Origin: Ptychodera flava
Lineage: Eukaryota; Hemichordata; Enteropneusta; Ptychoderidae
Reading direction: 5' to 3'
Assembly: GCF_041260155.1 (NCBI RefSeq)
Contig: NC_091933.1
Location: 31,427,933-31,491,932, forward strand
DNA: 64,000 bases
Both the position numbers and the translations under genes were made by a program. The notes beneath the pieces were generated by a model. It ran no database searches, had not been told where the DNA came from, and saw only the letters and a program-made list of their open reading frames with translations. Below, one piece after another: positions 1,070 through 54,738 of this stretch. Every line of letters begins with the position of its first letter. Positions within the stretch are counted from its first letter, which is position 1.

Positions 1070-2056
1070 ATGGCACTTGCTGGCTATCTCTTCTGCCTTC
1101 TTGTTTTTGGTAACTTCCTGTATGCCCAGGGTGTGGTATGTAAACCTGCGAAAAATGTAACCTGTCCCAGTGTCTGTCTCTGTCAAATGTGTCAGACGGG
1201 CCATGGTCGTCCGGTTAAAAAGCTTTGGGTCGACTGTGGATTTAAGAAGCTGACTTCTATACCTGCAAAGATACCACAAGAAACGTGGCGCTTGGACCTG
1301 TCTAATAATAGAATTGGTAGGCTCGACGCATTGGAGTTTTCACATCTTGCGAATCTTACTGTTCTCGACCTGAGCAACAATTTGCTAGACGCCAATCAAA
1401 TGGACCCTCGGATATTCGAAGGTCTAGGGAACTTGAATTATCTGATCCTGAAGTACAATAGAGCAATCAGTACGATTAAGAGTGAGTGGTTCCGTCCTCT
1501 GCAGAACCTGTCGAAAATTGACCTAATGCGAGCTAATGTGGAAACCATTTCTGAAGACGCCTTCAAATACCAGGTCAAGCTCCAATATGCACGTCTCATG
1601 GAGAACCGTATAAAGAAGATTGAACCGGCACTGTTTCGGAATTTACCTTCCCTGAAAAAGGTATTGCTTCAAAGGAATCAGTTGGAATATCTGCCTCCTG
1701 ACATGTTCAATGGATCAGTGAACACTGACGAACTGAATGTGTATAACAATAAACTCACCACCATCTCTTCGACGACTGGTCTTCAAAATATGAAGAACCT
1801 GAAACGACTGTCGGTGTACCAGAATCCCTTAGACTGTGGTTGTGATCTGGTTTGGTTTCGCCAGTGGATTGACACCAATGACATCATCGTGAAACCTCAG
1901 AATACAACATGTGCATCGGGAGTAAACCTGATGAAGTTCAATCCTGAGGATTTGCAGTGTGAATTTCCTGTTGTCATGGTGACTGTTTGGCACGACAGCG
2001 TTTCTTATCCTATGCTTATTAATTACACTCATTGTTACTAATAGGTGGAGGATCAG
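1070..2056 (+). CDS. LRR receptor exon A (type I), frameshifted before the membrane helix
   Basis: First coding exon of a TLR-like receptor. The ATG at 1070 opens a signal peptide (MALAGYLFCLLVFGNFLYAQ). Then come a Cys-rich LRR N-cap, about seven LRRs of 24-26 residues, and an LRR C-cap with NPLDCGCDLVWFRQW and the later TTCASG and LQCEF cysteines. The reading frame stops at 2039-2041 with an odd 17-residue tail after V-T-V. The membrane segment is still present in another frame from 1989 (FLILCLLITLIVTNRWRI), so relative to exon B the spacing is 2 nt short. A good donor (AG/GTGAGT) follows 2056 in phase 2, matching the acceptor at 4799. As read, the product is a secreted LRR protein without a TIR domain. 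A sequencing error, a recent null allele or a true soluble form all remain possible. Confidence 0.85.
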
Positions 2057-3415: not shown

Positions 3416-4799
3416 GTGAAAGTTCGTTAAATATTCAATTGAGCGGTGTCAATATCTTTAATACGATTCGTGAGATCTGATGCTTTCATTTTGCGAAAGT
3501 ATATTTTGTGAACAATTAGTTCTGCAAGTTAGCATTAAGTATGCATGCTATGTCCATTATTATTTATTTTCGTCCGATGAGCCGTTCTTGAGATATTTAG
3601 AGTTTCAGAGTTGCAGTCGTGAGTAGAAATTACATGGCTAGAAAATGAAGACGCAATTTGGAACGTACGGGAATAGAACACAGTCGAAAAATGCGGTTTA
3701 TAACGAAATTAAAATGTTATTCACAATATTCTGTCTCCTGTTTGACCCTTGATACCAGCGTAGGCGTATATGCATATTGTAGATGTACATGTACATTTGA
3801 TGCTCAAATTGTGTTCTTTCGAGTATTTCGAGGACATTTGGTTTTAAATTAATATTGTCTTCTCACTGAGTAAACAGTTAATCAGTCCTTACATCAGAAG
3901 GTTGCTACGTTGTCATTGGCTGTGAGTGTGGTTGATGGGCTCTTGTGGTGATGAAAACGTATATGGTAGGGTGGTGGTGAGAAGCATAATTCCTTTCAGT
4001 ACGGTGCCATATTACAGAATATACAATCGTTCGTAAATTGTGCCGTTTATGTATGTCCAAGAAATACGTAAGAGAAAAATGTAATACATAAAACTCTGGT
4101 TGAAGAATGCCGTTCAGAACCACTACATGTCCATTGAATATGGCGAGTCCAATGGAAGTTCAAGAGTTTTGAACTGTTATTATGTTGGTTTGGTTGATGT
4201 CTGATAAGTACCACAAATGTCTGGTCGAATTGTTTTGACAGACAGCTATAATGGCGACCTGTGGGTCTCTTGCCAACTAAACGAGCCACATTTAACTTTA
4301 TATTGTGTAAGTGTTAGCCAGGACATAAAATCAAACGTCTGCACAGTTCAAGAAATGGTTTAATGTTGCAATATAGGTCAAGCAAGGCAATACAGGTCAA
4401 GCTAGGCAACATGGTGTCACGATGGTATTTACAATGTGTTCTTCGTGTGAAAGCAGTGAGGTTTGACTCTTATGCCATTGATATGTATACCATTTATTTA
4501 CTTCATAAAGCTTACAGTGATCTAATCAGCAGTTATAACTATAATAGTGAACCTTTTGCTCATTCAAATTCCGCTTTTAATCGAACCACTCTTTTAACCG
4601 AGCGGTTTTGATTGTGATGACTTCGTTGGGCGACTGAGTGACTGTGAGTTCGAATTTACCAAATGAATAGGACGTGTAATATCTCATCAGGATGAGAAAT
4701 CATTAAAAGGTAAGCGAGACTTTGTTACGGGTACAAGCACCATACGGAAGACTTCTGTAACATAGTTTTATTCTTTTCGTCTGTTTTATTCACAAATAG
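2057..4799 (+). other. Intron between LRR exon A and TIR exon a
   Basis: About 2.7 kb, GT-AG, phase 2. It contains a non-coding block (2360-2640) that recurs near 6800, 12570 and 20460, a (TA)n tract at 3344-3410, and a stretch near 3700-3780 that recurs in the introns before TIR exons b and c and near 46680. No gene is supported inside it; the short open frames look like chance. Confidence 0.65.
3344..3410. repeat. (TA)n microsatellite
   Basis: Uninterrupted TA dinucleotides inside the intron of gene A. Confidence 0.95.
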
Positions 4800-5325
4800 G
4801 TACAAGTTGTATCTTCTCAAACTCTTCTGCAAGGGATACATTCCTATCGGCCATCAGGAGGAACCCATAGGCGAATATAAGTACGACATTTTTATTTCTC
4901 ACTCAAGAAAAGACGAAAATTGGGTTCTCAACGTCTTAAGACCAACCCTAGAAAACCCTCCCTACAACTACAAGCTATGCCTGGACTTCCGAGATTTCAT
5001 CGTAGGCAGCTGTATTTCAGAAAACATCATCGACGCCATCAACGAGAGCCGGAAGACTGCTTTCGTTGTCACCAAGGACTTCATTGAAAGTGAATGGTGT
5101 TACTTTGAGCTGGAGATGGTTCGTCAGAAGATGTTTGAGGAGCACCGAGACATCGCCATATTGATTCTCAAAGAAGACGTCCCCGCGAACAAAATGCCTG
5201 GACTACTGCAGTATTTAATGAGGCGAGGCAATCACATTGAATGGAGTGACAACAGGCAGGGACAGAAACTCTTCTGGAAGAAGATGGAGAACTCTGTTAA
5301 GAATACAGCAATCAATATGGCTTAG
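4800..5325 (+). CDS. TIR-domain exon a (terminal exon of gene A)
   Basis: Terminal exon of 526 nt after the acceptor AG at 4798-4799. Joined to WRI-AG it reads R-YKLYLLKLFCKGYIPIG, a juxtamembrane stretch, and then a complete TIR domain: box 1 YDIFISHS, box 2 CLDFRDFIVGSCISENI, the SEWCYFEL segment, and box 3 with LFWKKM. TIR domains of TLRs recruit adaptors such as MyD88 beneath the membrane. The BB-loop residue that is Pro in most TLRs (RDFIPG) is Val here. The stop is at 5323-5325. The exon is intact although its nearest upstream LRR exon (A) is frameshifted. Assignment as a TLR-type TIR is firm; signalling competence is unknown. Confidence 0.93.
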
Positions 5326-7950: not shown

Positions 7951-10639
7951 ATATTACCGCTATGATAAACGAGTCATATCGCTAACAAAAAATTGTGTTA
8001 AGGGTACCCCTTACAGTCATATCAGTGAACGTTTTTTATGGTTCCTATATAGGATGCATCAAATGTTGTTAATAACTAATCAAATGAACTTAAAGGTACT
8101 AATTCTGAGGCTGTTGGTCAATCTGACAGCCAATGTCAAACATGCCAACTATACCAGAACAATAGTACCAAGTCCTAATCTACATCATACTCATAAGTTC
8201 CATAGTGACAAACTCGATATAACAAACACAAACAGCACAGCAAAGACAGACAACAAACAAGTACCGGTACATACAACACAGTCAAATCTGTACAAGAAAA
8301 ATATATGGACCTCCGGTAAAGACAACCGAGAAAGTAATGTCAGGTGTTTCGAAATAGTAAGCACATTCTGCCCACAAATGTGGCACCTGCCATATATCAA
8401 TCTGTGAGTCAAAATAAGTAGTGGTCTCAATCTACAAACAGATGTCACCGATGCCATCAGTGATCATTTGTTTAAGTGATACATCATACTTATTTATCAG
8501 TTCATGACATGTGGAAAAAAAACGTTTGAATGTAGAGAAAAGCCTTTTTCTTGAGTAACCTCGATTTACAAGCTTGCAAGAGAATGGCTTCGTCGCTCCA
8601 CAAAATCACTATGCCGTAACGTACGCTTCCACAACATCTCAGAATTTGTCTCCCGACGACTAACAACTCTTCTTACATATGCTTGCTCCTTTGTGAGAAG
8701 TTGGTTTTGTCATCTTATCTGTGCAATTTGTAAACTGAAATCATTAAGGCCTAAGGAGTGATTTTTTTTAAAAATTGATTAGCACTTAACCCCTTACTCG
8801 TTAGATGTTCCCAGTTCGTTTAAGGAACCGTTCTTGAATCGCGCCACTGAAATAAACTTACAGAAATGTTGCTCACTGACAGGCATCGGCAACACTAATA
8901 GAAACATATTAGCAGACTGGGAACGTTCATGGTTCACGCACATACTGGTGAAATCAGGTAGGTTCTGAAAAAAGAAAGGAAAATATTTACACAATGAGAG
9001 GCGGTCATTATTCAATTCACAGTAATGTCTGATAGACGGTTACCGAACGTGTTATGTGTAATAAGGTAATGGAAATCTAGTTTTACTGCTATGATTTGCT
9101 AACATACAAACTATTCGTATTCTCACATAACATCATTTCCCACGAAGAAATGCAATGCCAGCATAAAAGGATAGAGTTTTCTTTGATGAAATTGTCCGTC
9201 AAAATTAACCACAATATACTTCTTACTTGACACTCAGGCCTACATTTCATTTTTGTTTAGCATTTGCATACCAAAGATGACTTGCACGATTAATACGCAC
9301 TCGTCAATGCAGTTTGTTTGGGAAATCCCCGCACAAGGACTTAAGGTAAAGGGCGACGAATTCGGACGCGCACACGCTTTAGAACGTTTCTGCGCAGATT
9401 TAACTCCAGCCTGCCGCAAATGGGTTATTTTGTAGAAATGTATTTAACATCCCCTGTCATTATTGAAATTGCGCTTTTACCAAAATTTTTGACCCAGTCT
9501 CTTAGAAAATACATGTGACCTATATCCTTGTCATATTTTGACCCCCTAGGAAGCTGGTTTTTATTCAATATGAGCGAAAAATTAACATTTCTCTCCCAAT
9601 TACATGGCGCACATTACCCATCACCTGGAGATATTGTAAAAAGTAGCGTGGTGACACCCTTTTTATTAAAAGTGTAAACAAAATGGTATTATGTTAGGAT
9701 TTTATTCGCCAAGTTTGGTCAAAATGACACCATCAAAGGGCAGGAAGAAAGTTCGAAAATTATGTAGTGATATAATTTCGATATCGTCATTTTGTAATCG
9801 ATACTTATGTTAAAATTTCTTTACAAACATCATGAAAGTCATACATTCGATACATATGAATCTTAAGTCTTTGTATTTATTAATTAACTCATTAACTCAT
9901 TTGCTAAGCGTTTTATAATTGCTTTCTTTAGTTTAAGTGAATTATATCATGTTATTTATTTCTAACGACGCCATTTTAACGACCGTTTCCATTGAAACGA
10001 GCGTGGTGACTCCATTTTTATTTCATTTTTGCACTTGCACAACTTCCAAGAATATTTGTGCAAAGTTTCAAGAAAATGACACCACAACCTAATTTGACGT
10101 TATTCGAAATACTTCACCTTAAATGATATACAAAGACTGAGTTATCGATCCAGTACTTCTGTGTATCTCCTGTCGACAAGAACAGAGGTTTCTCCGAGTT
10201 GTATCATCTTGTAAACGATTGGAAATTTATTCTGTTTGTCGACAAGTTATGCCTTGTTCGAATTTCATCCATATCTTCGATGTGCCGTAGTAGATATACT
10301 TGAATGCACCCCATAATTCTGTACAGTTTCAACAATTATGTTGTCAGCCGCACGCAGGCAATATTTGCTGCTACGTTGACAATAAAGTGAAATCGGACAT
10401 TGTCAATTTGGCTAAATTTTACTCTAGATTTCCTCACTCGATTTTTATGAGCATTTTGCGATGTCAGCTCTTAGGCCGTCGTAATTTTCATATGACCCAC
10501 CCTTAGAAGATTGCATTGACATCCTGAGAAAGAAATGTGCGTTCCTATACCAATTTAATAGTGCACTTACTCCCGTATACATCAACACAAAGGTAACATG
10601 TGCCGCACGGACCACTCAAAAGAGCCATGCGTCATCAAA

Positions 10640-10649
10640 GTCACGTGGT
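10640..10649. promoter_or_regulatory. E-box upstream of LRR exon B
   Basis: GTCACGTGGT, a perfect CACGTG core, 190 bp before the ATG at 10830. The surrounding 10570-10660 sequence is also conserved upstream of LRR exon D. Confidence 0.5.
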
Positions 10650-10829
10650 TACCCACAGCCTGGAGTCATCAGTAGATCAGGGGTCAGTGTGTTATATACA
10701 ATAGGCAGCCAAACGACAGATCCATACTGCCAAGATATATCAGGACTGGCGAGTCTTCAGGTATTTGTCCTGCTTCTTTTTGAAAATACACATAGTAACG
10801 GAAGTGTCCGAGCAAAATATCGTAACAAG

Positions 10830-11812
10830 ATGAAACTTGCTGGCTATATGCTCTGCGTTCTTGTTTTTTGCCGCCTATCGTATGCTCAGGGTCATGGATG
10901 TGTACCCGCGAAAAATGTAACTTGTCCCAGTATCTGTATCTGTCAAATGTGTAATTCGCCTAAACCGGCAAAAAGGCTTTGGGTCGACTGTGGATTTAAG
11001 AAGCTGACTTCTGTACCTGCAAAGATACCTCACGAAACGTGGAGCTTGGATCTATCTAATAATAGGATTGGTAGGCTCAATGCATTGGCGTTTTCACATC
11101 TGACAAATCTCACTCGACTCGATTTGAGCTACAATTTGCTAGATTACAATGAAATGGACTCCCGGATATTCGAAGGTCTGGGTAATGTGGATTACTTGAT
11201 TCTTAAGTACAACAGAGCCATTAGTACGATTAAGAGTGAGTGGTTCCGTCCTATGTACAGTATGTCGAAAATTGACCTGCAACGGGCCAATGTGGAAGCT
11301 ATTTCTGAAGACGCGTTTAAACATAATATCAACCTACGATTTGTGCGTCTCATGGAGAACCGTATAAACAAGATTGAACCAGCACTGTTCCGAAATTTAC
11401 CTTCCCTGGAGAAGGTATTGCTTCAAAGGAATCAGTTGGAATATCTACCTCCTGACATGTTCAATGGTTCAAAGAACACTGACGAACTGAATGTGTATAA
11501 CAACAGACTCACCATAATCTCTTCCAGTACTGGCCTCCAATATATGGAGAACCTGAAGCGACTGTCAGTGTACCAGAATCCCTTAGACTGTGGTTGTGAC
11601 CTGGTTTGGTTTCGTCAGTGGATTGACACTAATGACGTCATCGTGAAACCTCAGAATACTACATGTGCATCGGGAGTAAATCTGATGAAGTTCAATCCTG
11701 AGGATTTGCAGTGTGAATTTCCTGTTGTCATGGTGACCGTTGCGGCTGCTGTTGGATTTCTAATCTTATGTTTATTAATGACACTCCTTGTTACCAACAG
11801 GTGGAGGATCAG
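10830..11812 (+). CDS. LRR receptor exon B (type I), intact
   Basis: Intact ectodomain and membrane exon. I chose the ATG at 10830 because it gives a compact signal peptide (MKLAGYMLCVLVFCRLSYAQ) aligned with exon A; in-frame sequence upstream has no ATG. The LRR N-cap has Cys 24, 32, 36, 38, 41 and 54. About seven LRRs span residues 66-245. The C-cap has Cys 254, 256, 279 and 295, and N-glycosylation sequons include NVT and NTT. The membrane helix is at about 303-322 (AAAVGFLILCLLMTLLV), followed by a stop-transfer NRWRIR. The donor AG/GTGAGT follows 11812 in phase 2. No TIR exon lies before LRR exon C, so the next usable acceptor is TIR exon b at 18490, giving a 502-residue receptor over a 6.7-kb intron that contains exon C. 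If the intron is read through, the frame stops at once after WRIR. Confidence 0.9.
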
Positions 11813-13969
11813 GTGAGTGAGTTTTTCATACCATAACATACCGGATTGAAAACGTTTTCATATAATGTAATGATTTTAGCGATATCAATAAACATGATTT
11901 TTAGAGTTGTTAATCCCACATCTTCGCACACAGTGTTTGTCATTTAGGGCCTATTTGTTCAAGTCTAGTCAATGAAGTAACTACTTGTCTGTCCAAAAAC
12001 CCTCATTTTCGGAAGTGAATTAGATTATACCAGAAATGACCCACTGGCTGTGACGGTCAATGGTTTTATATTTCAAAGTAATTTCCTTGAGGACGTACAC
12101 CTCGCTTATTTGCCCTACTGTTTAACTAGTCAATAGCATCAGTGTGTATATACTAGTAATGTGCACTGCCGTTGAACTCCCTTGTCATCAGAAAACAATT
12201 GTTTAGTATTATTAATACGCTTGGATGACAGGATTAATTGACTGTACCACTATATATGAATACTTGGCAAAAATCATAAGCAAAATGTCGTTTTTGTGAA
12301 GACAAATAATGACATAAGTACCAACAGTTACTAATGCCTCTTAAAAGGGGCTAACACTAAGGCAGTATTAAATGTTGTAAATTTGAGTTGGGGGAGCAGG
12401 GTCCAAGTCGATTGTTGAAGTACTTCTGTATAGAATTCAGATTTCATCTGGATCTAATGTCAGTGCGTGTAGGTCATCGGTATTTATTGGTGACATTTTA
12501 ATAGTATCACACAGTGTCTCATCGAACGACAATTTAATCATGATTTACAGTAATTTTACTGGGCTGTTTTCGTATCCGTGCAGTGCATTCAGTGACATAA
12601 TATGGTTGTGTGTGGGTGTTCTGCACTTTGCATTTTGTCATCGTTCGATTTCTGCCCCATTCAGCCGAGCGCTAGTGGTAGGTATTTGAACTTTTATAGA
12701 ACCGACCAGTGTTAGGTGCACACTACCCCCATACATAATACACACAATCCGGACACTGAATCCATACCAGAGGACGACCTTTTACCTTTCGGCCCACATA
12801 GGCCTAATTCCTTCCTAGCCATGTTGACAAGGCAGATGTATAGTCTCGACTATGCCATCAGCGATTCAATGATTCATACGATCGACAAGGTTTTCGATGC
12901 CTTGTTAGCATCGCCATTCCGAAAGACGCGTTGGTTACTTGGTTTTGACGTTCACGATTCTTAATGTCATTGATCTTGTGCATTACTAGTATTTCAGAAT
13001 TTGTTGTATCCCTAGACAGTAGCAAAATGACTGTCTTGGACGGTAAATGCACGGTGTATTGCATATTACACTGCAATCATAGCAATAACTTTGACCTAAA
13101 AGGTCAATGGATATCCGTGAAAATCGGGAATCAGAAGGATAAGATCCGGCAAAATTAGGTTTTACAGGATAATATTTGCGTTGATATGTTTGCAGTGTTA
13201 CCATACAATACATACACAGCAGGCGTGTGATAGATTGGTATTTGAAAGTGTAGTTGAAGTGTGGAAGTGGGTGTTGGAAGTGAAGCTTGCTCATCAAGCC
13301 AAGTTTTGCCGGTACATGTTGTCCGTGCTGACGCAAAAACAATTATGTGAAGTTCATAAACGTTCCATTATGCGAATATTTCGAATCCACTGACGCCTTG
13401 GCTTGTAACCCCGTGAGGAAATTGCTGGACACCAATACCTGGCATTGTGATGCTAATTTTTCTACATCCCGGCATAGACAGGGCAAAGTCTACACCAGCA
13501 GTGTATCTCCAGTCAATAGTTTGTTTGTATATACAATGGTACAATGTACAACTGTGAATACAAGCTGCAAGCATTGTTCATCATTAGATGTATCTATGCT
13601 GTATCGATATTTGATATTTTCCTACTTCTATCAAAAGGGACATTCAGGTCATCTCTGGGAGGTAACCACAGTCTATACGCTAAATTTGAGTGTTAGCTTA
13701 CCCCACGATGGGGTATATCTCAGAACTGCTCTTATACCCGTGCAGTTTGTACAATAACACGTCATAGACCTAAGAGGCAAGAAGCATTTTTTCGATGATT
13801 GAATAGATCTCATCCCTCGCCCTCAGGTGTTTTTGTTCACCAGGGACCGCATCAAAACAGTACACTGAAATAAACTTACGGACGTGTTGCTTAGGCATCA
13901 ACATATGAGTTTTTAAGGAGAACCCATAAGCGGTTTAAAGTTTGGTGCTGTATTTTTGTGGCATTTTAA

Positions 13970-14385
13970 ACAGTGTTATTTGGATGCTCACTGTCAACAT
14001 TTTGTCCTGCCAATCAAGCGCGAAATCACCCGCAAAACGTGGGGGGAATGATAGTATTTTCTGAGAATTTTGTAACTGGCGGTCCGGAAAATATTAATTT
14101 CCGAAGATTGGGCTGATACTCTCGTCATCTTAGCTACGAAGGTGGAACGCTTTTCGAAAAAGACTAAGTGCGTGGCTTAGCGATGTGTACAGGCGCCATG
14201 CTTTTTGTGGACTCCCTGGTAGAGTATCACACAGACTTCTGAAGGAGTCTGCTCAAAAAAAAAGATATGAGGGGAAATATGATCGGTATGACTGTAATAT
14301 TTTGCATAAAATAAAGTAAATCTTGGCCAAAAACCTTCCGAATGTGACCTAAATGTGTTTTCCTGGTAGAAGAAGACTAGCGTGA
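13970..14385 (-). repeat. Inverted segmental repeat, right copy
   Basis: Reverse-complement partner of 7520-7950. The orientation differs from the related 30190-30290 segment behind LRR exon D, so this copy may have been flipped after the unit duplicated. Confidence 0.65.
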
Positions 14386-14920
14386 AATCAAATTTTAAAA
14401 AATCAAATCAAATCAAATCAAAGTGGACAAATTATTCCTATGTGACGTATCTAAACATCGGGGATTTAAACTACGTTCAGAATGTCATTTCTAACCCTTT
14501 CTCCAAAAACGTTGCAAGCTTCTTATTATTTGCGATGGATCGGATTCATTATAACGCTTTTGTCAAATTTTAATGCTGCCTTTTGTATATGTATTGTATT
14601 GAGTACTTTTGCAATGTTCAGTGCCATTGGTGAATCACACAGTGCATCGAAAGGAAAACCAAAACTGAAGTATTATTGTTCAAGGGTCACAGCTACTATA
14701 CCTTGAATACAAGTCAGCAGGATTTCTGTCTCACAGACACGTCGCCCCTTTGGAATCCGCTCCAACATTGCGAAAATACCTGACTCACTGTTAGAGGCGG
14801 ATGAATTTTAAACCATAGTACGGTGATGAGCCATCCAAGACACGCACTTTCCTCCTCATTTACGTATCGGGTTATGGGTACAAAATTCTGCTGAAGGGCT
14901 TGACTCATTCATCCACTCAT

Positions 14921-14963
14921 AAATGAATAAATAAATAAATAAATTAATTAATTAATTAATTAA
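14921..14963. repeat. Tetranucleotide microsatellite
   Basis: Runs of AAAT then AATT-type tetranucleotides upstream of LRR exon C. A related but shorter tract lies at 34820-34855 upstream of exon E. Confidence 0.8.
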
Positions 14964-15458
14964 ATACTATCACTATAGTCTTTGTCGTGATAAGACTTTC
15001 ACGACCATGAGAATATTATTCACTTGAGCAGCAAACTGCGCTGGTCAAAGAATATTTCATCTGCTGATCATTATTGTGTATTCGTTATTATAAACATTTA
15101 CAATAAGAGTTCGTAGTTTAAATGCCCCATAATTTGAGACTGATGTAGTCTAACATATTCTTGCCATGGTCGGCAATTTTAATTCAACTTGAAATTCCTA
15201 AGACCGTTGATATATTTGATTGCGAGAAAAGGTGAGGGGCCGTCAGCCGAACGTTATTTTGCCTTTCTCTATACTGCTACTAAATGTAGCAACCGTGGTT
15301 TCACGATTTTCCATGTTACCGCCCTCGAACGTTCACACTGGTCAATTGTATTCAAATTGTGTAATTGATATGCACCCACGCAAGACGGAAACTTCATGCA
15401 GTATAAGCATTCATTTAAAAATCAATCAAGGTGAAAGGTTGTTTCGTAGTTCAAAATA

Positions 15459-15499
15459 TCACATGATATTTAAAAACGAGGTTTGAAATATCACATGAT
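15459..15499. promoter_or_regulatory. Two E-box-like sites upstream of LRR exon C
   Basis: ATCACATGAT occurs twice (15459-15468 and 15490-15499) in a short tandem duplication. The second copy is 180 bp before the ATG at 15670. It aligns with the GTCACGTGAT site upstream of LRR exon E, sharing the following GATCGTG-GGCCGAA. Confidence 0.45.
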
Positions 15500-15669
15500 C
15501 GTGTGGCCGAACCAATTATCGTACGGACGTACGTATCGTACGTACAAAACAGCAGCGTCTGCGTAAAGTAAGTATTGCATTGTGCCTACGTCTGTATGAG
15601 AAGTCCTTTGCTTACGAGGCAGAAGAGCAACCGTTCGCTGTTCGAGTACACAATACCCTTCACGTCAAA

Positions 15670-16652
15670 ATGTCGGCAAGCAAAAGTAACGCAGCCCTGG
15701 TACGCCTGATGGCCATTGGTTTTTACACGATGTACATGTTCACTGGTAGCTGTGTTACCGCGACGAATGTATCCTGTCCCGATGTGTGTATCTGCAAGTA
15801 CGGTGATGAAAGGTTGAGAGTCAGCTGCGACTCCAAGAAGTTGAACTCTGTACCCCAAGACATACCTCTGGAAACAATATCTCTCAACCTTGCTAAGAAT
15901 AATATTGGAATGCTGAGAAGACCCGGAGAGATTTCATATTTGAAGCGTCTTTATCGACTTGATCTTAGCTACAACCAGCTGGATAGCAACTACATTCATC
16001 CTAAGACGTTTGATGGACTTGAAGAGTTATATAACTTAATTCTCAAATTCAACAGAGCTCTTAAAACAATTCCCAGTGAGTGGTTCCGTACTCTGAAAAA
16101 TCTGTGGAAAGTAGATCTGGAAAGAGCTCACGTGGAAACAATTTCTGAAGACGCCTTCATATTTAACACAAAGTTAAAGTTCATAGTGCTACGCGATAAT
16201 CTGATCAAAAATATTGAACCAGGATTGTTTCGAAATTTACCATCGCTTGAGAAAGTGCTCCTTCAAACAAACCAGTTAAAGCATTTGCCACCCGACATGT
16301 TTAATGGATCAATTAAAGCCAACGAACTGAATGTCTATAGCAACAAGCTCAGCACAATCACACCTATGTCCGGTCTTCAAAATATGGAGAACTTAAAACG
16401 ACTGTCGGTGTACCAGAATCCCTTAGACTGTGGTTGCGATCTGGTGTGGTTTCGTCAGTGGATCGAAACTAATGACGTCATCGTGAAACCTCAGAATACT
16501 ACATGTGCATCGGGATTAAATCTGATGAAGTTCAATCCTGATGATCTGCAGTGTGAATTTCCTGTCGTCATGGTAACCATTTTAGTCAGTCTCGGTATTA
16601 TTCTTCTGTTCGCGGTGATTGCACTCTTGGTCTCTAATAGGTGGAGGATCAG
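15670..16652 (+). CDS. LRR receptor exon C (type II), intact
   Basis: Intact exon of the second ectodomain type. The ATG at 15670 aligns with exon E, and the signal peptide is MSASKSNAALVRLMAIGFYT plus a few residues. The LRR N-cap has Cys 36, 40, 42 and 53. Seven LRRs run from residue 68 to 245 (for example LYRLDLSYNQLDSN). The C-cap has Cys 254, 256, 279 and 295. The membrane helix is at 302-322 (VSLGIILLFAVIALLVSN), then RWRI. From about residue 240 the DNA is nearly identical to type I exons, while upstream it is strongly diverged. The donor AG/GTATGT after 16652 is phase 2, and joining to 18490 gives 502 residues. Unspliced reading gives a short tail YVAESQQC and a stop at 16678-16680, also found in exon E as YVAKSQQC. 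Confidence 0.92.
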
Positions 16653-18489
16653 GTATGTTGCGGAGAGCCAACAATGTTAAATACGTCACGATTAGTGATT
16701 TCAATCACACATGAAACGGAGAGTTATCAATCTAATGTCTATAGAACAATTTAGCATGGTTATGCTAATGTATTGAAAAGTTTTGTGTAATTTCGTCACT
16801 GTGACCTAACACTGTAAAATTAGAAATAACATACATGACAGAAAGTAAAATTACAAAAGGAGAAGATATACGATACCTTTCGGTTTTCGGTGTTCAATCG
16901 AACTTCTTACATGTCGATGTCCCAGTATAGCTGCAAAATTATTACAATGGGTGAGTTGGCCTGTCTATCAACCGCGTTTTTCGTGATCAAAGGATAATCA
17001 TTGTCAAGCGTGATTTCTCTGAGGTTGTAGTCCTGAAAACACTCATTGTTCTGCATTCTACTGTTATGGAGAATCATAAAGAACTGCTGGCGAAAGAGTC
17101 AATGTTCTTCGAGAGTGTTAAACGATAAATCACAAAGTGTTTTCCCCCAAAGCTTGTATCACTGTCCTAATGTTTTATACCCCAAATGAAAATACTGGTC
17201 GCCTGAGCTGTTCAGAAACCACTGACAAATACCACTTTTCGTGACCTTTCGCATAACTTTCAAATGAGAAAAAACAGGGTTGGAGCAGCGCAGGGTTAGT
17301 GGGCGAGTTGCTTAAATCTGATTCATCAAGATTCGCACACAATGTGCAAATCGTAAATAGAGCGACTCTTAAATAGAGTCATGTAAGGAGAAACTTTGTG
17401 TTTAATAATTACAGCAGACTATTGCCAACTACGTCTTTGCAGAGAGATACTATTTTCTATAGCCAGTCTCTTAAGAGACCACTGTTCCTCCAAAATAAAC
17501 AAGAGGCTAATCACTTCAGGCATTCACCCAAGGTAAAGAAATTACCTAGACGGTATTATGAATTGGATAAAACTAGTTCGTTAAATTACCATGCTTTGTT
17601 TTGTCGACAACGCATTAATTTGTAATTATTATTATCCAAGAAGGGTATAGGTATTAGCATTTATTATATTTTCAATTATTAACCAATGTAGCGATATGCT
17701 GTGCGATCAAATAGAGCTCACGTGTTGAATGTGTGCATTGTGTGTTTCATATCGGTGTCACAATAGAAAATTGAAGTCTTTCCGTGCATCAGCGACTTCT
17801 ATGAGAATATGTCCGTCTCTCTTCTGTTTGATAGAAAGCAAATCGTTCGAGAGGTGCAAATGTGGATTGTCTTAGGGTTGTAGTTAGGCTATATGGTTGA
17901 GATTAAAAATCTTACTAGAGTGAAGATAGCCTAAATTCCGAGCCTGAAACGTACCGAATTTGTACTAGCATGGGCGTCAACACATATTGGGGATAGAGTC
18001 GCGGCGGCGACTTTGAATCATACTACGGGTTCACAGTGTCGCTCAAAGAGTACACCAAAAACATCTACAGAAAACAGTTAAAACATGTAATTGAGTGAAT
18101 AAATTATCGTGCTGTCACCAAGTAAGTATCTTAAATAGGTCAAGACTCAATGGCTGTCTAGGGCTGTGTTTGTGGGTGTTGTCCGCGGAGGTAGCGATCC
18201 GGATGGGGATAGAGGTTCTCCAAATTTTTCGAATGTGGTTTGAAACCCAAGTTTAAAACACCTCCCTGTAAATCCATACCAAGGTCTATTAAAAATCAAA
18301 CACTATTAAAGGCTTCAACTGTAAACCTTATGAAACCAAAATTCAAACTAACCTGATTATTTGCCTCGAGAAAGCTGAAGTAAGTAAAAGTAATTGTAGC
18401 ATTTTTACAAAGCACTTCCTTGTCGTCCAGTCAGTGTCAACACAAACAACGCGATTTAATTCTTTGCTTTCTGCTTTATTCACAATCAG
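16653..18489 (+). other. Intron between LRR exon C and TIR exon b
   Basis: About 1.8 kb, GT-AG, phase 2. It aligns along nearly its full length with 36398-38202. No gene inside. Parts near 17680-17960 also recur in the ghost loci at 46480-46640 and 62020-62110. Confidence 0.75.
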
Positions 18490-19015
18490 GTACAGGTTGT
18501 ATCTTCTGAAACTCCTCTGCAAGGGATACATTCCTATTGGCGATAAGGAGGACCCCGTAGGCGAATACAAGTATGACATTTTTATTTCTCACTCCAGCAA
18601 AGACGAAAATTGGGTTCTCAACGTTCTAAGACCAACCCTAGAAAACCCTCCCTACAACTACAAACTGTGTCTAGACTTCCGAGATTTCATCGTAGGCAGC
18701 TGTATTTCAGAAAACATCATCGACGCCATCAACGAGAGTCGAAAGACTGCCTTCGTTGTCACCAACGAATTCATCGAAAGTGAATGGTGTTACTTTGAGC
18801 TGGAGATGGTTCGTCAGAAGATGTTTGAGGAGCACCGAGACATCGCCATATTGATTCTCAAAGAAGACGTCCCCGCGAACAAAATGCCTGGACTACTGCA
18901 GTATTTAATGAGGCGAGGCAATCACATTGAATGGAGTGACAACAGGCAGGGACAGAAACTCTTCTGGAAGAAGATGGAGAACTCTGTCAAGAATACAGCT
19001 ATCAATATGGCTTAG
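18490..19015 (+). CDS. TIR-domain exon b (terminal exon shared by B and C?)
   Basis: 526-nt terminal exon after the acceptor AG at 18488-18489 (tract TTTATTCACAATCAG). It encodes the juxtamembrane YRLYLLKLLCKGYIPIGDKE, then a TIR domain: box 1 YDIFISHS (about residues 356-363 of the joined protein), box 2 RDFIVG (392-397), SEWCYFEL, and box 3 LFWKKM, ending NTAINMA. Residue 396 is Val, not Pro. It can be joined in frame to both exon B and exon C, each with its own candidate promoter. Compared with exon a the changes are few (SSKD for SRKD, NEF for KDF), and the core from WVLNVLRP to KTAFVVT is identical in all four copies. Confidence 0.93.
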
Positions 19016-21477
19016 ATGCCAATCAGCATTGCTCAAAATTTTACAAAGAAATCCTGTGTAATTTTTGTTTGCACAACCTTTCTTACACTCCAAATAGTTG
19101 CAATACTCCAATAATGCTTACAACTCTGCTGTCACTTGTCATTATGACGTGATTGTCACAATTAGTAGACAAAACAGATTAATGTTGTACGAAAATAAGA
19201 GGGATTGGCTCAAGACAGTCTTTTTTCGTGAATGATGCAGCATAATCTATGTACTTTTCTTGGGTGCAGGAATTGAGAGTTACGTTGATTTAGGGAAAAC
19301 CAGAACAAAGATACGTTTTACGCCCTTTTGCACGTTGCACTCAAAAACAATGAAATTTTTCGGGCCACCGGTAAAGCGGCCATACACACTGTAAACAGTT
19401 TAAAAGTATAGCGTACGTGTATGATAAGATGCTTGTATCAAAAATAAAATAAAAATGCAATAGTCTGTGTTTTTAATTGATACATACAGTATCTCGCGGA
19501 AACATGTGAGCCAAAGTTTTCTAACCCGAAAGAACCTCAATATAAAAAGGTGGAAGTATCCATGTGCAGTATAAGCTTTGAAGTTGTAGTGTTTTGTCAT
19601 GAGGCATGCCTTGTAATTTCAGACTCAGACAAATAACTGGAGCATTATTCACTGAGATTAAAGAATGTCAAAAGACCTTTGACAAACAATGCTCTTTTCA
19701 TGAGTGCTTCTCATGTTACGTCACAAGTGTATCACTTTGTCTACTAATATAATGTGAATACAGGTTTAGAAATTATACTGATTTGAGATTTCTTGCTGCA
19801 AAAAAATAATGTAGCTATAGATCATAGTATACGAGGCAGACTAGATATGTTCTCAATAGTGTTTCTTTTTCAATAGAGACTTTTCACCGAATCAATAATT
19901 GCATGTTCAAAGACTCCTTTAAACAAAGGTTTTAGTAAATTTAATAGATTTTGCTTTGATATATGTGTATTATATCTCGTTTGTAGTATATCTCTTTTCG
20001 GTAAAGCAGATTAAAAGAATGTTTGATAGAGATACTCCTGCTTAGTTGAATCATATATTTAAGCCACGTCCTGAGGACTAACGTAGTTTTTATTCAGCGT
20101 TGGTTACTCGACTCTCATAGCAAGAAAACATCAAGCCGACGTCTAAACTTTCTGAATAAACCATGTCTTTTTATATACCATATAATAAAAGTTTCATTGC
20201 TTGACGTCATAACTGTCGCATCTTTTCTACGTAAAGTTTTCCATTTTCACATTGACAAGCCCACTTGCCAACACTATGATGCTTTAATTGTCTCTAATTT
20301 GAGCTTAAAGATCACCATTTCAAAGCCAATCGATAAAGTAGTATGACCTCGATCAAAGTTCAATGTATTTGTATGACCAGATTTAATGGATAAAATCTAA
20401 ATTAATGATATCATTAGTTTCACGTAGACGCCGTGTCAATCATTATATCATATATAGTTTACAGAGTTTTTATTGTATTCGTCCAGTGCATTCATCATCT
20501 TAACGTTTTTGAGTGCTAGGTGTTTTGCACTTTGTATTTTACCATGTTTTGATTGGTGCTCGAGTGTTTATGACCAGTATTTGAACTTTCAGCAGACTGA
20601 CGTGTACTAATTACACCCTATACCCCCGGTGCGGTATGATACTCAAATCCCTGACACTCAATGGAATTACCTTTTACCTCTCGCTCTTGTGTAATTCATC
20701 CTTCAGTGTCGAGTTGACACCTGGTAACTTCATATTTCGAACTACACCAGCGTCACCATTCGACCGACAAAACTTTCGATGACTAATTAGAACAAAATTC
20801 TGGTGAACAGGTGGAATGGTTTGCTTTGATTTAACATTTCAGTATTTATTGTATCTTGAGACATTAGAAAAAGGCTGTCAATACTGGTAGTACAGGCATG
20901 ATGTCTTCATCGAAGGCGTTGTCTTGTCGTAAAAATTCAATGGAAAACAGTAAAATCGTGAATCGAAAGGATGAGATCCCGAGGAAATTTTGTCTGCATT
21001 TTTTAAAAACGTAACTTACGTTTCCGCCAAATTTCGGAATACCACTCCCCACGACTAGTAACTTTGGGCATATGCTCGCTTCTTTATATCTATGCAGTTT
21101 GTAAAATGAAATCATCATTTCCTGTATGGAGTGATATATTTGAAAACTGAATAGCTCTTAACCACTCGCCTGCCAGCCCTAAGTTCGTTTAAGTAAGCGT
21201 GCTTAAATCGCTCCACAGAAATAAACTTACGAACATGTTGCTCACTGGTATGCATCGATGTCAACATTTTAGTACGGAGACATATTAGCAGACTGGGAAC
21301 GGTGATAGTTCATGCACAACATGGTGAAATCAAGTAGGTTCTGAAAAAAAGAATGGAGATTATTTACACAATAAAAGGTAAGCATGTTTTAACTCACATT
21401 TATGTCGTATTGAGGATTACCGAACATATACGTGTATAGTAAAATCTACTTTTACTACAATGATTTACTGAGATTAC
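19016..21477. other. 3' flank of TIR exon b
   Basis: Non-coding and collinear with 5326-9100 behind TIR exon a. It includes a copy of the recurring block near 20460-20760. The homology stops at about 21477, where the 6.3-kb inverted-repeat element begins. Confidence 0.6.
20155..20160 (+). terminator. Candidate poly(A) signal after TIR exon b
   Basis: AATAAA in TTTCTGAATAAACCATGTCT, 1.14 kb after the stop, in the same conserved context as the site at 6446. Confidence 0.4.
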
Positions 21478-21536: not shown

Positions 21537-22068
21537 CGTAAATTATATATTTTCGGAAAGCCTAGATATAGGGAGCATTTTGGTTACCATAGTATCACCA
21601 TTGTTTACATAACTATCACGTGACAAGTAATTTGCATAACCTTTCAAAAATGTGTTTTCCCTAAATTTTGTTACAATGCTTTGAGATATGTGGCTTAAAT
21701 TAGTGTGAGTGCAAGCTGTCATAAGGATCTTCCAAAATGTGTCTTAGATTGTTTTTAACCTTCTTAAACAATTTTCATGCCAGAAAAACTTGCAGAGCGG
21801 TGAATTTATTCCGAGTTGATTTCTCTAAAATTGTGCTCAAGAAAAAAACTAAGCAAGAAATAAAAAATCTGAGACACTTTTTGGAAGACCGTTGTGACAG
21901 CCTGCATTCCAGCAAGTTTGAGTCAGATATTTTGGAGTATTGAGACAAAACATAGGGAAAACCTATTTTTGAAAGGTTATGCAAATTACCTGTCACTTAA
22001 TCAATGGTGACACTGTGGTTACCAAAATGTTTCCCTGTATCAAGGCTTTTAGAAAATGAATAATTTAC
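21537..22068. mobile_element. Nested MITE-like element in the left inverted repeat
   Basis: Roughly 140-bp inverted arms: the left arm begins GTAAATTATATATTTTC and the right arm ends GAAAATGAATAATTTAC. It interrupts the left terminal repeat of the 6.3-kb element; the right repeat at 27670-27690 lacks it, giving an internal empty site. It has a 69-codon open frame of no recognised family. Confidence 0.6.
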
Positions 22069-23949
22069 CACAGCGTGAAAAGGTTAAAATACTGAATGTA
22101 TTGATCCTGTATTTTGGCTGTATTTGCTGCAAATTCAGACAGATACAGGTAAATACAGTCATGTATTTATGGTAAATACAGGGCAACTCAGCCTGTATTT
22201 ACCTGTATATGCACTATTTATACATGTAAATACATCTCCTGTATTTGCCTATATTTACTCTAAGTAAAGGACTACATTTGCCTGTATTTACATGTATTTC
22301 CAGCCAGTGTGCTGGCAGTGCCTCCAGCTTATTTTTCAGGATTTACATAAATTCCGGTTAATACAGTTCTGTATTTATATTCCAACGTTACCATATGGCA
22401 TCTGTAATTATTCATATTTGAGCTTCTCAAAAGTTAGAATGCTGGCAGTGAACAATACTGGATTTCACGGAATACTTTAGCCACTGAATCAATGAAAGCC
22501 CACTGAGAGACGTGTACCAATCTACTAGGCACATGATTTCATTTCACCAGATTAGGACAGTAATTGAGTTACTGCTACAAATAAAAACATAGCATCCGAT
22601 TTTAAACTGGGGGATCGCCGTTATGATTTGATATTCAAATGATGTTAGGGCAAGACGAACTCATCTAGGTTAAAAGTTGTCTATATTTCTATAGACCTTT
22701 TACCAACATAATGACATGATATTGTCTCTACTAATCACTAAATAGCACGACGTAGTGTCACTTATCACACACATTCAACAGATATTTTACACAACAAATA
22801 TTTACCAAGAAAAATTAAAAAATTAATTTCCAAACTAGAATTTAATCAGAGCTTTGAAAATAAATACACAATGGAATGAAAAGAGCCACTGAAACTGTAA
22901 ACAATACTAAAACAGTTGTATGTTGCACAGATTTTGGAATTACTGCACTGACCTTTTGGAATTTTTTCTAATCTAGTATAGCATATGTTCTTTTTGTTTG
23001 GAAAGAAAACAACCAATGTTGCAGCTGAGAGATCCCCTTCGCGATATTGGCATGCATACAACACATCTTTGGGGATAAACATATATCAGAAGACAACTTA
23101 CTCAGATCACACGTGGCAACTTGCGTGCATAATTTGAAAGCAATCAGTCGAGTGGCAGTTTCTCAGAAGGTATTTTTTCCATTAAAAAGGCAGAACTTTC
23201 ACCAAAATTCAACTACATGCAAACTTCACCATAATTTGATCAAAATCTTACTCGGTTGTTTTGCTTCATTAACCTGCCTCATAAATCTCAAAGCAAATTG
23301 ACAAGTGGTCTGAGAGAACATTCCCTGTATACCAAAGTTCACAACAAGTTAATTGACAAGTGGTTTTAAGGAAAGTCAACTGTGGAGGGACAGGTGAAAG
23401 GCTAAGAGATAATCGGCTATTTGAAAACTTTGAGTCAACTGTGGTGGTGAAAACTGGGCAATCATAATGCGTTGATGAGATGAGATCTGCTGCGTATTTC
23501 CTCAATGTATTCAGGTGCAATGAGTAGAATGACTGCCTTCCTCTTAGAATTTTTAAATACACTTTTTCCGTTAGACAGGCATCTAATGTACATAATAGTT
23601 TATTCAACAGGTTTGCTCTTCAAGCAGGAGACCACAAGATGACAAATCCACCCTCCTCTTCCTCAGGAGTAAACCCGTCAAAAGAGTCATGTTGTCATAT
23701 TCAGAAGCACACGATGAATCGTCTTCATGGCCTGCGAGACAAAATAGAAAGCATGTATTCTCGCTTACTTCTCGCAAAAAACGAGAAAGTGTCCATTCCT
23801 CGCAAATTTCTGGCAAATCATTGTACTAGTGTAATTCGACCGTTAATTTCCTATTAAATTCGATCCGACGATTTAAACTCATAATCATTTTTGTGCTCGA
23901 AATCATGGGTTTTTACGGTAATATTAAGATCCCGTACACATTGACAACG

Positions 23950-28022: not shown

Positions 28023-28032
28023 GTCACATGAT
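28023..28032. promoter_or_regulatory. E-box-like site upstream of LRR exon D
   Basis: GTCACATGAT, 169 bp before the ATG at 28192. It aligns with the GTCACGTGGT site of exon B within a conserved 100-bp block (27940-28075). Confidence 0.45.
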
Positions 28033-28191
28033 ACTACTAATAGACTTGAGTCATCGGTGGATCAGGGGGTCATCTTGTTATGCACAATAGGCAGCAGAGT
28101 CGCAGATTCATACCGTCAGGATATCTAGAACGGCCTATTTTCGAGTATTTTCGTGTTTTCGGGGGAAAGACACTTATTTAGTAACGGCAGT

Positions 28192-29200
28192 ATGCAAGCA
28201 AGATACCGTAACACGATAAAACTTGCTAGCTATATGCTCAGCGTTATTATTTTTTGTCGCTTGTCGTATGCTCAGCGTCATGGATGTGTACCCGCGAAAA
28301 ATGTAACTTGTGCCAGTATCTGTGTCTGTCAAATGTGTGATTCGCCTTATCCAATAAAAAGGCTTTGGGTCGACTGTGGATTTAAGAAGCTGACTTCTGT
28401 ACCTGCAAAGATACCACAGGAAACGTGGAGCTTGGATCTATCAAATAATAGGATTGGGAAGCTCGATGCATCGGTGTTTTCACATCTGACGAATCTCACT
28501 CGACTCGATTTGAGCTACAATTTACTAGACTACAATGGAATGGACTCCCGGACATTCGAAGGTCTGGGAAATATGGATTACTTGATTCTTAAGTACAACA
28601 GAGCCATTAGTACGATTAAGAGTGAGTGGTTCCGCCCTATGTACAGTCTGTCGAGCATTGACCTACAACGGGCCAATGTGAAAACCATTTCTGAAGACGC
28701 GTTTAAATATAATATCAAACTACGATTTGTGCGTCTCATGGAGAACCTTATAAACAAGATTGAACCAGCACTGTTCCGAAATTTACCTTCCCTGGAGAAG
28801 GTATTGCTTCAAAGGAATCAGTTGAAATATCTACCTCCTGACATGTTCAACGGATCAGTGAACACTGACGAACTCAATGTGTATAACAATAAACTCACCA
28901 CAATCTCTTCGACGACTGGTCTTCAAAATATGGAGAAACTGAAACGACTGTCAGTGTACCAGAATCCCTTAGACTGTGGTTGTGATCTGGTCTGGTTTCG
29001 CCAGTGGATTGGCACCAGTGGCGTCATCGTGAAACCTGAGAATACTACATGTGCATCGGGAGTAAATCTGATGAAGTTCAATCCTGAGGATTTGCAGTGT
29101 GAATTTCCTGTTGTCATGGTGACCGTTTCGCGGCTGCTGTTGGATTTTTGCTCTTATGTTTCTTAATCACACTCATTGTTACCAATAGATGGAGGATCAG
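28192..29200 (+). CDS. LRR receptor exon D (type I), frameshifted before the membrane helix
   Basis: Closest relative of exon B. The Met that starts exon B is Ile here, so I use the next upstream ATG, at 28192 (MQARYRNTIKLASYMLSVII, then FCRLSYAQ). N-cap, seven LRRs and C-cap match exon B. After V-T-V two extra bases (29128-29129) shift the frame, giving a tail of 12 residues and a stop at 29164-29166. The membrane helix is readable in the other frame (AAAVGFLLLCFLITLIVTNR, then WRI), and the donor AG/GTCAGT after 29200 is kept, with weaker consensus. As read, the product is a secreted LRR protein. It lies upstream of LRR exon E with no TIR exon between. Confidence 0.83.
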
Positions 29201-35399: not shown

Positions 35400-36397
35400 A
35401 TGTCGGCAATCAAAAGTAATGCAGCCCTGGTATGCCTAATTGCCATTGGTTTTTACACGATGTACGTATACGCTGGAAGCTGTGTTCCGGCGACGAATGT
35501 GTCCTGTCCCAGTGTGTGTATCTGTGAGTACTGTGATCTGCCGTGGCCAATTAAAAGGCTGAGAGTCAGCTGCGACTCCAAGAAGTTGAACTCTGTACCC
35601 CAAGATATACCACTAGAAGCAGTATCTCTCAATCTTGCCAAGAATAATATCGGATTGCTGAGAAGACCCGGAGAGCTTTCATATTTGAAGCACTTGTATC
35701 GACTTGATCTGAGTTACAACCAGCTGGATAGCAACAATATTCATCCTAAAACGTTTGATGGCCTTGTAGAGTTGAATAACTTAATTCTCAAATTCAACAG
35801 AGCTCTTAAAACAATTCCTAACGAGTGGTTCCGTACTCTGAAAAATCTGTGGAAAGTAGATCTGGAAAGAGCTCACGTGGAAACAATTTCTGAAGACGCC
35901 TTCAGATTCAATACGAAGTTACGATTCATAGTGCTACGCGATAATCTGATCAAAAATATTGAACCAGGATTGTTTCGAAATTTACCATCGCTTGAAAAAG
36001 TGCTCCTGCAAACGAACCAGTTAAAGAATTTACCACCCGACATGTTGAATGGGTCAATTAAAGCCAACGAATTGAATGTCTATAGCAACAAGCTCAGCAC
36101 AATCACACCTATGGCCGGTCTTCAAAATATGGAGAACTTAAAACGACTGTCGGTGTACCATAATCCCTTAGACTGCGGTTGCGATCTGGTGTGGTTTCGT
36201 CAGTGGATCGACACTAATGACGTCATCGTGAAAGCTCAGAATACTACATGTGCATCGGGATTAAATCTGATGAAGTTCAATCCTGATGATCTTCAGTGTG
36301 ACTTTCCTGTCGTCATGGTAACCGTTTTAGTCTGTCTTTGTATCATTCTTCTCTGCGCAGTGATTGCACTCTTGGTCTCCAATAGATGGAGGATCAG
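35400..36397 (+). CDS. LRR receptor exon E (type II), intact
   Basis: Intact paralogue of exon C, five codons longer in the N-cap (CEYCDLPWPIKRLRVSC). The ATG at 35400 gives the signal peptide MSAIKSNAALVCLIAIGFYT plus a few residues. Seven LRRs follow (LYRLDLSYNQLDSNNIH, LNNLILKFNRALKTIP and so on), then the C-cap NPLDCGCDLVWFRQWIDTND and the membrane helix VCLCIILLCAVIALLVSN, then RWRI. The donor AG/GTATGT after 36397 is phase 2, and joining to 38203 gives 507 residues. The intron-retained tail YVAKSQQC ends at 36423-36425. Compared with exon C the differences are spread through the LRRs while the cap is nearly the same. Confidence 0.92.
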
Positions 36398-38202: not shown

Positions 38203-38728
38203 GTACAGGTTGTATCTTCTGAAACTCCTCTGCAAGGGATACATTCCTATTGGCCGTCAGGAGGACCCCGTAGGCGAATATAAGTACGACATTTTTATTT
38301 CTCACTCCAGCAAAGACGAAAATTGGGTTCTCAACGTCCTAAGACCAACCCTAGAAAACCCTCCCTACAACTACAAGCTGTGTCTAGACTTCCGAGATTT
38401 TATCGTAGGCAGCTGTATTTCAGAAAACATCATCGACGCCATCAACGAGAGTCGAAAGACTGCTTTCGTTGTCACCAACGAATTCATCGAAAGTGAATGG
38501 TGTTACTTTGAGCTGGAGATGGTTCGTCAGAAGATGTTTGAGGAGCACCGAGACATCGCCATATTGATTCTCAAAGAGGACGTGCCTGCAAACAGAATGC
38601 CTGGACTACTGCAGTATTTAATGAGGCGAGGCAATCACATTGAATGGAGTGACAACAGGCAGGGACAGAAACTCTTCTGGAAGAAGATGGAGAACTCTGT
38701 CAAGAATACAGCTATCAATATGGCCTAA
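38203..38728 (+). CDS. TIR-domain exon c (terminal exon shared by D and E?)
   Basis: 526-nt exon after the acceptor AG at 38201-38202. It encodes YRLYLLKLLCKGYIPIGRQE, box 1 YDIFISHS, box 2 with RDFIVG, SEWCYFEL, NRMPG, and box 3 LFWKKM; the stop is at 38726-38728. Its 5' flank matches that of TIR exon b, but its 3' flank matches that of TIR exon d, and so does the NRMPG variant. The exon therefore looks like the crossover point of a chimeric unit. Val replaces the BB-loop Pro as in the other copies. Confidence 0.93.
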
Positions 38729-53808: not shown

Positions 53809-54738
53809 ATGGCATATGCTGGCTATCTTCTCTTCCTTCTTGTTATTACATATTACTCGTCGTATGCTCAAGGTAAGAAATGTGTCCACGCGAAGAATGT
53901 AACGTGTCCCGATGCCTGTATTTGTGATCTGTGTTATTCCCCCACGTTTAAAATAAATCTGTCGCTGACGCTCGACTGTGCATCCAAGCAGAGGTTGACT
54001 AAAGTACCTTCAAAGATACCAACAGCAACGGTATACTTGGATTTGTCGACTAACAAGATTGGTAGGCTCGGTGCTTTGGAGTTTGCACATCTAACAAAGC
54101 TTCATACACTCAACCTGGCCCATAATTTGCTAGACGGCAATCAAATGCATCCTGACGTATTCGAAGGTCTTGGGAATTTGGAGTATCTGCTTCTTCGGTA
54201 CAACAGAGCCATTACAACGGTTAGGAGTGAGTGGTTCCGCCCTCTGCAAAACCTGTGGAAAATTGACCTTCGAGAGTCTAGTGTTGAAATCATTTCAGAA
54301 GACGCGTTTAGATACAATGTCAAGTTATGCTATTTACTTCTCCATGGAAACCAGATAAAAAAGATTGAGCCAGCTATGTTCCGGAATTTACCTTCTCTTG
54401 AAAAGGTATTTCTTGAAACGAATCAGATAGAATATTTACCCCCTGACATGTTCAATGGGTCCACTAAAATTGACGAACTAAATCTATCCAATAACAAACT
54501 CACCACAATCTCTTCGACGACTGGGTTGCAACAGTTGGAGAATTTGAAACGACTGTACGTGCACCATAATCCCTTAGACTGTGATTGTGAACTGGTGTGG
54601 TTTCGTCAGTGGATTGACACTAATGACAACGTTATCGTGAAACCTCAGAATACTACATGTGCATCAGGAGTAAATCTGATGAAGTTCAATCCTGATGATC
54701 TGCAGTGTGAGTTTCCTGTCGTCCTAGTATCCATTTAA
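53809..54738 (+). CDS. LRR receptor exon F (type III), stops before the membrane helix
   Basis: The most divergent ectodomain. The ATG at 53809 gives signal peptide MAYAGYLLFLLVITYYSSYA. The N-cap is longer than in exon B (CICDLCYSPTFKINLSLTLD), followed by LRRs such as LHTLNLAHNLLDGNQMHPD and a C-cap NPLDCDCELVWFRQWIDTND, with TTCASG and LQCEF. The frame ends VVLVSI at a TAA (54736-54738), exactly where type I and II exons enter the membrane helix. No WRI codons or donor are visible afterwards, only a trace of an ATTATTCTT-like match to type II. The product would be a secreted LRR protein of 309 residues. AATAAA at 55148 and 55511 could end such a transcript. Confidence 0.85.
   Translation: MAYAGYLLFLLVITYYSSYAQGKKCVHAKNVTCPDACICDLCYSPTFKINLSLTLDCASKQRLTKVPSKIPTATVYLDLSTNKIGRLGALEFAHLTKLHTLNLAHNLLDGNQMHPDVFEGLGNLEYLLLRYNRAITTVRSEWFRPLQNLWKIDLRESSVEIISEDAFRYNVKLCYLLLHGNQIKKIEPAMFRNLPSLEKVFLETNQIEYLPPDMFNGSTKIDELNLSNNKLTTISSTTGLQQLENLKRLYVHHNPLDCDCELVWFRQWIDTNDNVIVKPQNTTCASGVNLMKFNPDDLQCEFPVVLVSI

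Follow-up and report, generated by a model that had tools for sequence, protein, structure and literature searches.

A 64,000-nucleotide (nt) window of the Ptychodera flava genome (contig NC_091933.1, positions 31,427,933 to 31,491,932; positions below count from the first letter of the window) carries a receptor locus in which two intact exons, B and C, precede a single exon, b. Each of B and C encodes a leucine-rich repeat (LRR) ectodomain with a transmembrane (TM) segment, and b encodes the TIR domain of a Toll-like receptor (TLR). We give roughly even chances to the interpretation that B and C are alternative first exons sharing TIR b. Directly supported are the intact exons, their reading frame and splice motifs, the single TIR exon, the duplicated layout, and selection on B after the duplication. 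Separate promoters, a B-b junction, and signalling through b are what we infer in addition.

Under this proposal, transcripts starting upstream of B would splice from the B donor over C to the b acceptor, and those starting upstream of C would join C to the same b. The products would be two 502-residue receptors with a common TIR domain and different LRR ectodomains. As a first exon with no recognisable 3' splice site, C would be expected to be left out of B transcripts. When scored with a generic position weight matrix (PWM), no AG reaches at least 3.2 from 13843 to the C ATG (15670), so a 3' splice site for C is not apparent and its skipping is predicted.

Architecture of the locus

The 64-kb window has six LRR exons and four TIR exons, each on the + strand and arranged as A a, B C b, D E c, F d. 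The LRR exons are of two types, with A, B, D and F belonging to type I, and C and E to type II. The exons and the signals around them are as follows.

1070..2056, + strand: LRR exon A (type I), whose frame is lost where the TM segment begins; TIR a comes next
4800..5325, + strand: TIR exon a, intact
10554..10829, + strand: 5' flank of B, candidate promoter and 5' untranslated region, with homologous blocks ahead of A, D and F; putative promoter function
10830..11812, + strand: LRR exon B (type I ectodomain, TM segment, N-R-W-R-I, phase-2 donor), intact, 983 nt
11813..11818, + strand: splice donor of B, GTGAGT; read-through meets an immediate in-frame TGA
12350..13900, + strand: segment R of the B-C spacer, with homologues 3' of TIR a and b, 3' of D, and within the A-a intron
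13869..13874, + strand: AATAAA in a AATAAACTTAC block with further copies at 8851 and 21220; B transcripts may use it as a poly(A) signal
15085..15669, + strand: 5' flank of C, candidate promoter, similar to the E flank; putative promoter function
15670..16652, + strand: LRR exon C (type II ectodomain, TM segment, N-R-W-R-I, phase-2 donor GTATGT), intact, 983 nt
18490..19015, + strand: TIR exon b, constant exon including the stop codon, with Pfam TIR match and scored acceptor
19443..19448, + strand: nearest AATAAA 3' of TIR b, at a distance of 428 nt; probably the gene's poly(A) signal
28216..29200, + strand: LRR exon D, duplicate of B, with ATA at the canonical ATG, a +2-nt frame break at the TM start, and donor GTCAGT
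35400..36397, + strand: LRR exon E, duplicate of C, intact
38203..38728, + strand: TIR exon c, duplicate of b, intact
53809..54738, + strand: LRR exon F (type I), ending in VVLVSI-stop before any TM segment
55700..56225, + strand: TIR exon d, intact

Only B, C and E, or three of the six LRR exons, encode a full membrane protein, because the frame of A and of D is broken from the TM start onward and F stops before a TM segment. The Kyte-Doolittle 19-residue maximum points to a single TM segment in B (2.85), C (3.09) and E (3.39), and by this measure none is present in A (1.13), D (1.54) or F (0.49). The three defective exons lose the TM segment at nearly one place (1984-2041, 29127-29166 and 54721-54738). 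Relative to B, A has 2 nt fewer and D 2 nt more, F has a stop codon, and the ectodomain frame is open. The branch leading to A is under purifying selection (44 synonymous to 49 nonsynonymous changes, p=7e-9), and secreted LRR forms from A and F are possible.

Exons B and C are each open from an ATG through the LRRs, an LRRCT domain, the TM segment, and N-R-W-R-I to the phase-2 donor. The initial annotation had described both as intact, with phase-2 donors after W-R-I and 502 residues apiece with b. Joining B+b and C+b in silico reproduced this description, with only a terminal stop in each product. Pfam LRR_8 matches both ectodomains with E of about 2e-26, and LRRCT_2 scores 20.8 bits in B and 22.7 bits in C, which is under its cut-off of 23.8 bits. 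The predicted structure of B shows regular LRR strands, preceded by a signal-like helix (residues 2-21) and followed by a TM helix (299-327). This model rests on an alignment of 6 sequences and has a mean predicted local distance difference test (pLDDT) score of 74.6; residues 254-301 fall below 50 and the LRRCT region is poorly modelled.

Exon b matches Pfam TIR (E 6.7e-20), and its best match among sequences of solved structures in the PDB is the TIR domain of TLR2 (2.6e-29). The hallmarks of a TLR are present, namely an extracellular LRR domain and a single TM segment in B and C, and a TIR domain in b. A B-b protein, if made, may be a receptor that signals on ligand binding. All four TIR exons carry RDFIVG in the BB-loop where TLR2 has a proline (RDFIPG); excerpts of PMC6224433 describe a role for this proline. 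In genome-contig and viral-contig collections, TIR b had no confirmed relative (59 and 8 pattern matches, none confirmed).

The splice sites have been scored with PWMs of generic frequencies, not fitted to this species. The B donor, CAG|GTGAGT, is a perfect U1-type site that is also kept in A, and its score of 9.14 is matched by 0.05% of the 4022 GTs. For the C donor, CAG|GTATGT, the score is 5.62 (reached by 0.27% of GTs), and the b acceptor, with the exon starting at 18490, scores 5.13 (reached by 0.7% of the 3364 AGs). Between the B donor and b, 11 AGs score at least 3.2, and a long frame opens only from b (175 amino acids versus 8-54). Intron retention would give C and E similar short tails, RYVAESQQC and RYVAKSQQC (16653-16682 and 36398-36427).

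It had also been claimed that neither a TIR exon nor a relic of one lies between B and C. Searches with tblastn and nhmmer --max, using a profile of the four TIR exons, bore this out at E<=10, and in the window their matches were a, b, c and d only (4/4). The locus comprises tandem paralogous first exons, B and C, that share a splice phase and lie upstream of one constant exon, which is a hallmark of a variable-first-exon gene.

Separate flanks, each a candidate promoter, accompany the two exon types. The 5' flanks of type I and type II exons are mutually unrelated and each is conserved within its type. An nhmmer profile built from the B, D and F flanks also matches the A flank (884-1069, E 6e-18), with no further match in the window at E<=0.01. 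The C and E flanks are 87.1% identical (15099-15669 versus 34883-35399), and their introns are 82.0% identical.

A duplicated two-exon layout

The B-C-b arrangement has a counterpart in D-E-c. Positions 10554-19130 and 27934-38825 are linked by seven collinear same-strand blocks, of which one holds B and its flanks (85.8% identical), five are pieces of the B-C spacer, and one holds C with its flank, the intron and b (81.1%). Synonymous divergence (dS) between the copies is 0.148 for B/D, 0.210 for C/E, and 0.114 for b/c. Because D-E-c is a collinear copy of B-C-b, the possession of two LRR exons per TIR exon is older than the copy. A type I exon, a type II exon and a single TIR exon were thus already grouped when the block was copied, and B has been without its own TIR exon for at least that long. 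A chance origin of the layout is ruled out by the same I-II-TIR order in the collinear copy.

The two exon types themselves seem to be much older. The LRR ectodomains of B and C are 61% identical, with a dS of about 2 in the LRR body, and synonymous divergence between type I and type II LRR bodies appears to be about 2 or more.

Two histories of the arrangement would fit the spacer. Segment R, which follows B, D and A, has homologues that begin beyond TIR a and TIR b, 1.25 kb downstream, and a tree of R segments sets (a,b) apart from (A,(B,D)) with support of 0.99-1.0. We lean toward a history in which the intron, TIR exon and 3' flank that originally belonged to B were deleted, and a type I exon may instead have been lost downstream of a and b. 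Within the A-a intron lie a type II intron-like stretch (3699-3784, E 1.6e-7) and another resembling 62162-62820 (E 2.5e-13). These matches would fit a history in which unit 1 once lost a type II exon.

Selection on exon B and decay of exon D

Exon B has been under purifying selection since its split from D, all the while lacking a TIR exon of its own. With A as the outgroup, 16 synonymous changes and 13 nonsynonymous ones fall on the B branch (p=6.7e-5 versus neutrality), whereas the D branch carries 8 and 22 (p=0.50), and B differs from D in this respect (p=0.035). Stricter counts were also made for B, since LRR exons of different types look homogenised at their 3' ends. These gave 8:8 without the homogenised 3' end and 9:10 without sites matching C, E or F, each with p=0.011.

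The homogenisation itself is evident from the likeness of LRR exon 3' ends across types (B 11553-11738, C 16393-16578, and the same part elsewhere). Between B and C, dS is about 2 in the LRR body and drops to 0.14 over the final 40-codon window, which looks like the work of gene conversion.

The exon can also be compared with its surroundings. Exons B and D are 92.3% identical with 1 gap event, the insert in D, and their flanks are 72.0% and 76.4% identical, where gap events number 18.9 and 24.2 per kb. In neutral simulations with flank-derived rates (3000 per setting), the B frame survived in 0.0003-0.002 of runs at a substitution level of 0.074 and 10 or 5 indels per kb, and in 0.07 of runs without indels. 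The branch test and the intact frame together disfavour B as a plain pseudogene.

Constraint extends to the 19-codon TM/N-R-W-R-I segment across the A/B/D clade. Here the synonymous to nonsynonymous counts are 6:3 for A/B (one-sided p 0.003) and 7:4 for A/D (p 0.001). Exon D is decaying, and its ratio of nonsynonymous to synonymous rates (dN/dS) is near neutral. ATA replaces its canonical ATG, with an upstream in-frame ATG persisting at 28192; a 2-nt insert interrupts the TM segment, and its donor, GTCAGT, is weaker than that of B.

Alternative explanations for exon B

Several observations weigh against the sharing of TIR b by B and C. With F as the outgroup, the counts are 8:9 for B and 7:23 for D, and 21 changes (11:10) are left un-polarised. 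In the TM segment the B/D comparison gives 4:4 (p 0.07) and the B branch alone 1:1; selection reaches significance over the ectodomain, and sites at the donor and TM segment are too few for significance on the B branch alone. Furthermore, the decay of D in the sister unit implies that the arrangement is not maintained everywhere. Putative RNA signals in the interval may also compete with b: two AGs outscore the b acceptor (13826 at 7.26 and 17834 at 5.76), poly(A)-like signals lie upstream of C at 11887 and 13869, and an unspliced B frame meets an AGG-TGA stop directly at the donor.

This immediate stop, combined with the acceptor-like and poly(A)-like signals of the spacer, makes a serious rival of the explanation that B encodes a TIR-less membrane LRR protein, such as a decoy or co-receptor, whose transcript ends in the spacer. 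Such a protein would either stop unspliced after N-R-W-R-I-R or be spliced to a short spacer exon. The acceptor-like site at 13826 lies 43 nt before the AATAAA at 13869, which stands in a block that is repeated in the window, and selection on the ectodomain and TM segment would fit a TIR-less form as well. Against this explanation, the donor that B retains is in frame with b and ranks in the top 0.05%, and the counterparts of the 13826 acceptor in the two other copies score weakly (3.12 and 3.55). The signal at 11887 may be a chance occurrence because AATAAA appears 65 times in the 64 kb, or about once per kb. We regard a TIR-less B as the main rival, though clearly less likely than the sharing of b, and such a form could coexist with B-b.

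Less probable still is that B is an orphan left after TIR loss and heading for decay as D is, with any B-b transcripts amounting to read-through noise. The duplicate D is already decaying, and the spacer resembles the sequence downstream of TIR a and b, as if a deletion had removed the original intron and TIR exon of B. Also in favour are the relics of dead type II exons near 45.6 and 61.1 kb. However, the purifying selection on the B branch, which holds in both stricter counts, and the low neutral survival of its frame argue against this explanation.

The region of these relics covers 45592-45723, 46258-46732, 61145-61307 and 61962-62115, where weak relics of type II exons (E 3e-4 and 0.005) have nearby sequence that matches a type II flank or intron. 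These are the remains of dead type II genes, one set lying 3' of c and the other 3' of d.

Least probable of all is the pairing of B with an exon outside the window, or with another TIR exon of the array by long-range or trans-splicing. TIR exons a and d are intact although A and F lack a TM segment, and other LRR-TIR pairings would be in frame because every intact LRR exon has a phase-2 donor and all four TIR exons accept that phase. Nevertheless, b is the nearest downstream TIR exon, and sequence favours none farther away.

Alternative first exons sharing b remain our preferred reading, and the proposal of the initial annotation can be divided. Its depiction of one locus with alternative ectodomains agrees with the architecture and gains from the D-E-c duplication, the selection on B, the consensus donor, and the frame match. 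Its further proposal, that promoter choice brings both exons into use with b, is less secure, given that the 13826 acceptor and the 11887 and 13869 signals would allow B transcripts to end short of b.

Other features of the window

A near-palindrome of about 530 nt at 21537-22070 is possibly a foldback element, and a 77-bp unit is present in three tandem copies at 33226-33456. An open reading frame of 153 amino acids at 57100-57561 gave no match in a Pfam search; we take it to resemble the end of a non-LTR reverse transcriptase. An Rfam scan of the window returned 0 matches.

Comparison with known systems

The initial annotation knew of no TLR locus built in this way, and our search of titles and abstract openings in the open-access literature, which is limited evidence, likewise found none with alternative ectodomain exons on one TIR exon. 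Should both B-b and C-b be produced, a TLR gene could exchange its recognition surface while its signalling domain stays fixed, through ordinary promoter choice and splicing, and a pattern-recognition receptor would join the variable-first-exon systems. A simple route to such a system would be that an ectodomain exon without its own TIR exon borrows that of the next gene. In such genomes, TLR counts based on TIR domains would miss receptors.

Established variable-first-exon genes offer close parallels in architecture. Excerpts of PMC1885805 describe UGT2A and UGT1 as clusters in which paralogous first exons lie in tandem and are spliced to a common set of exons further downstream. In human UGT2A the variable exons number two and are 64% identical in nucleotide sequence, which is close to the case of B and C here. 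These genes encode enzymes and their splicing is demonstrated, whereas here the products would be receptors with predicted junctions.

The sDscam genes of chelicerates are a second parallel. In excerpts of PMC4835542, tandem 5' ectodomain cassettes with their own promoters precede a shared downstream part, and sDscam-beta6 has two such cassettes. As in our locus, an invertebrate cell-surface receptor has tandem variable ectodomain units on a shared part. The differences are that sDscam cassettes encode Ig domains in 2-4 exons each, rather than one LRR and TM exon with a constant TIR exon, and that transcripts from upstream promoters there also splice in downstream cassettes. Tandem amphioxus TLR arrays resemble the present array in being an expanded family of LRR-TM-TIR receptors, yet excerpts of PMC6224433 count them as one ectodomain per TIR domain, in text that does not discuss exon/intron structure.

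Clustered protocadherins also have tandem ectodomain exons spliced to constant cytoplasmic exons. They differ in having tens of variable exons and a neural role, compared with two exons per unit and an immune-type TIR domain here. With somewhat less than even confidence, we propose a protocadherin-like TLR array in which two ancient exon types on one TIR exon are chosen by promoter, and in which the I-II-TIR unit was duplicated and is now being sorted. Unit 2 would have kept both heads and unit 3 its type II head. In an array of this kind, ectodomain diversity would evolve uncoupled from the signalling domain.

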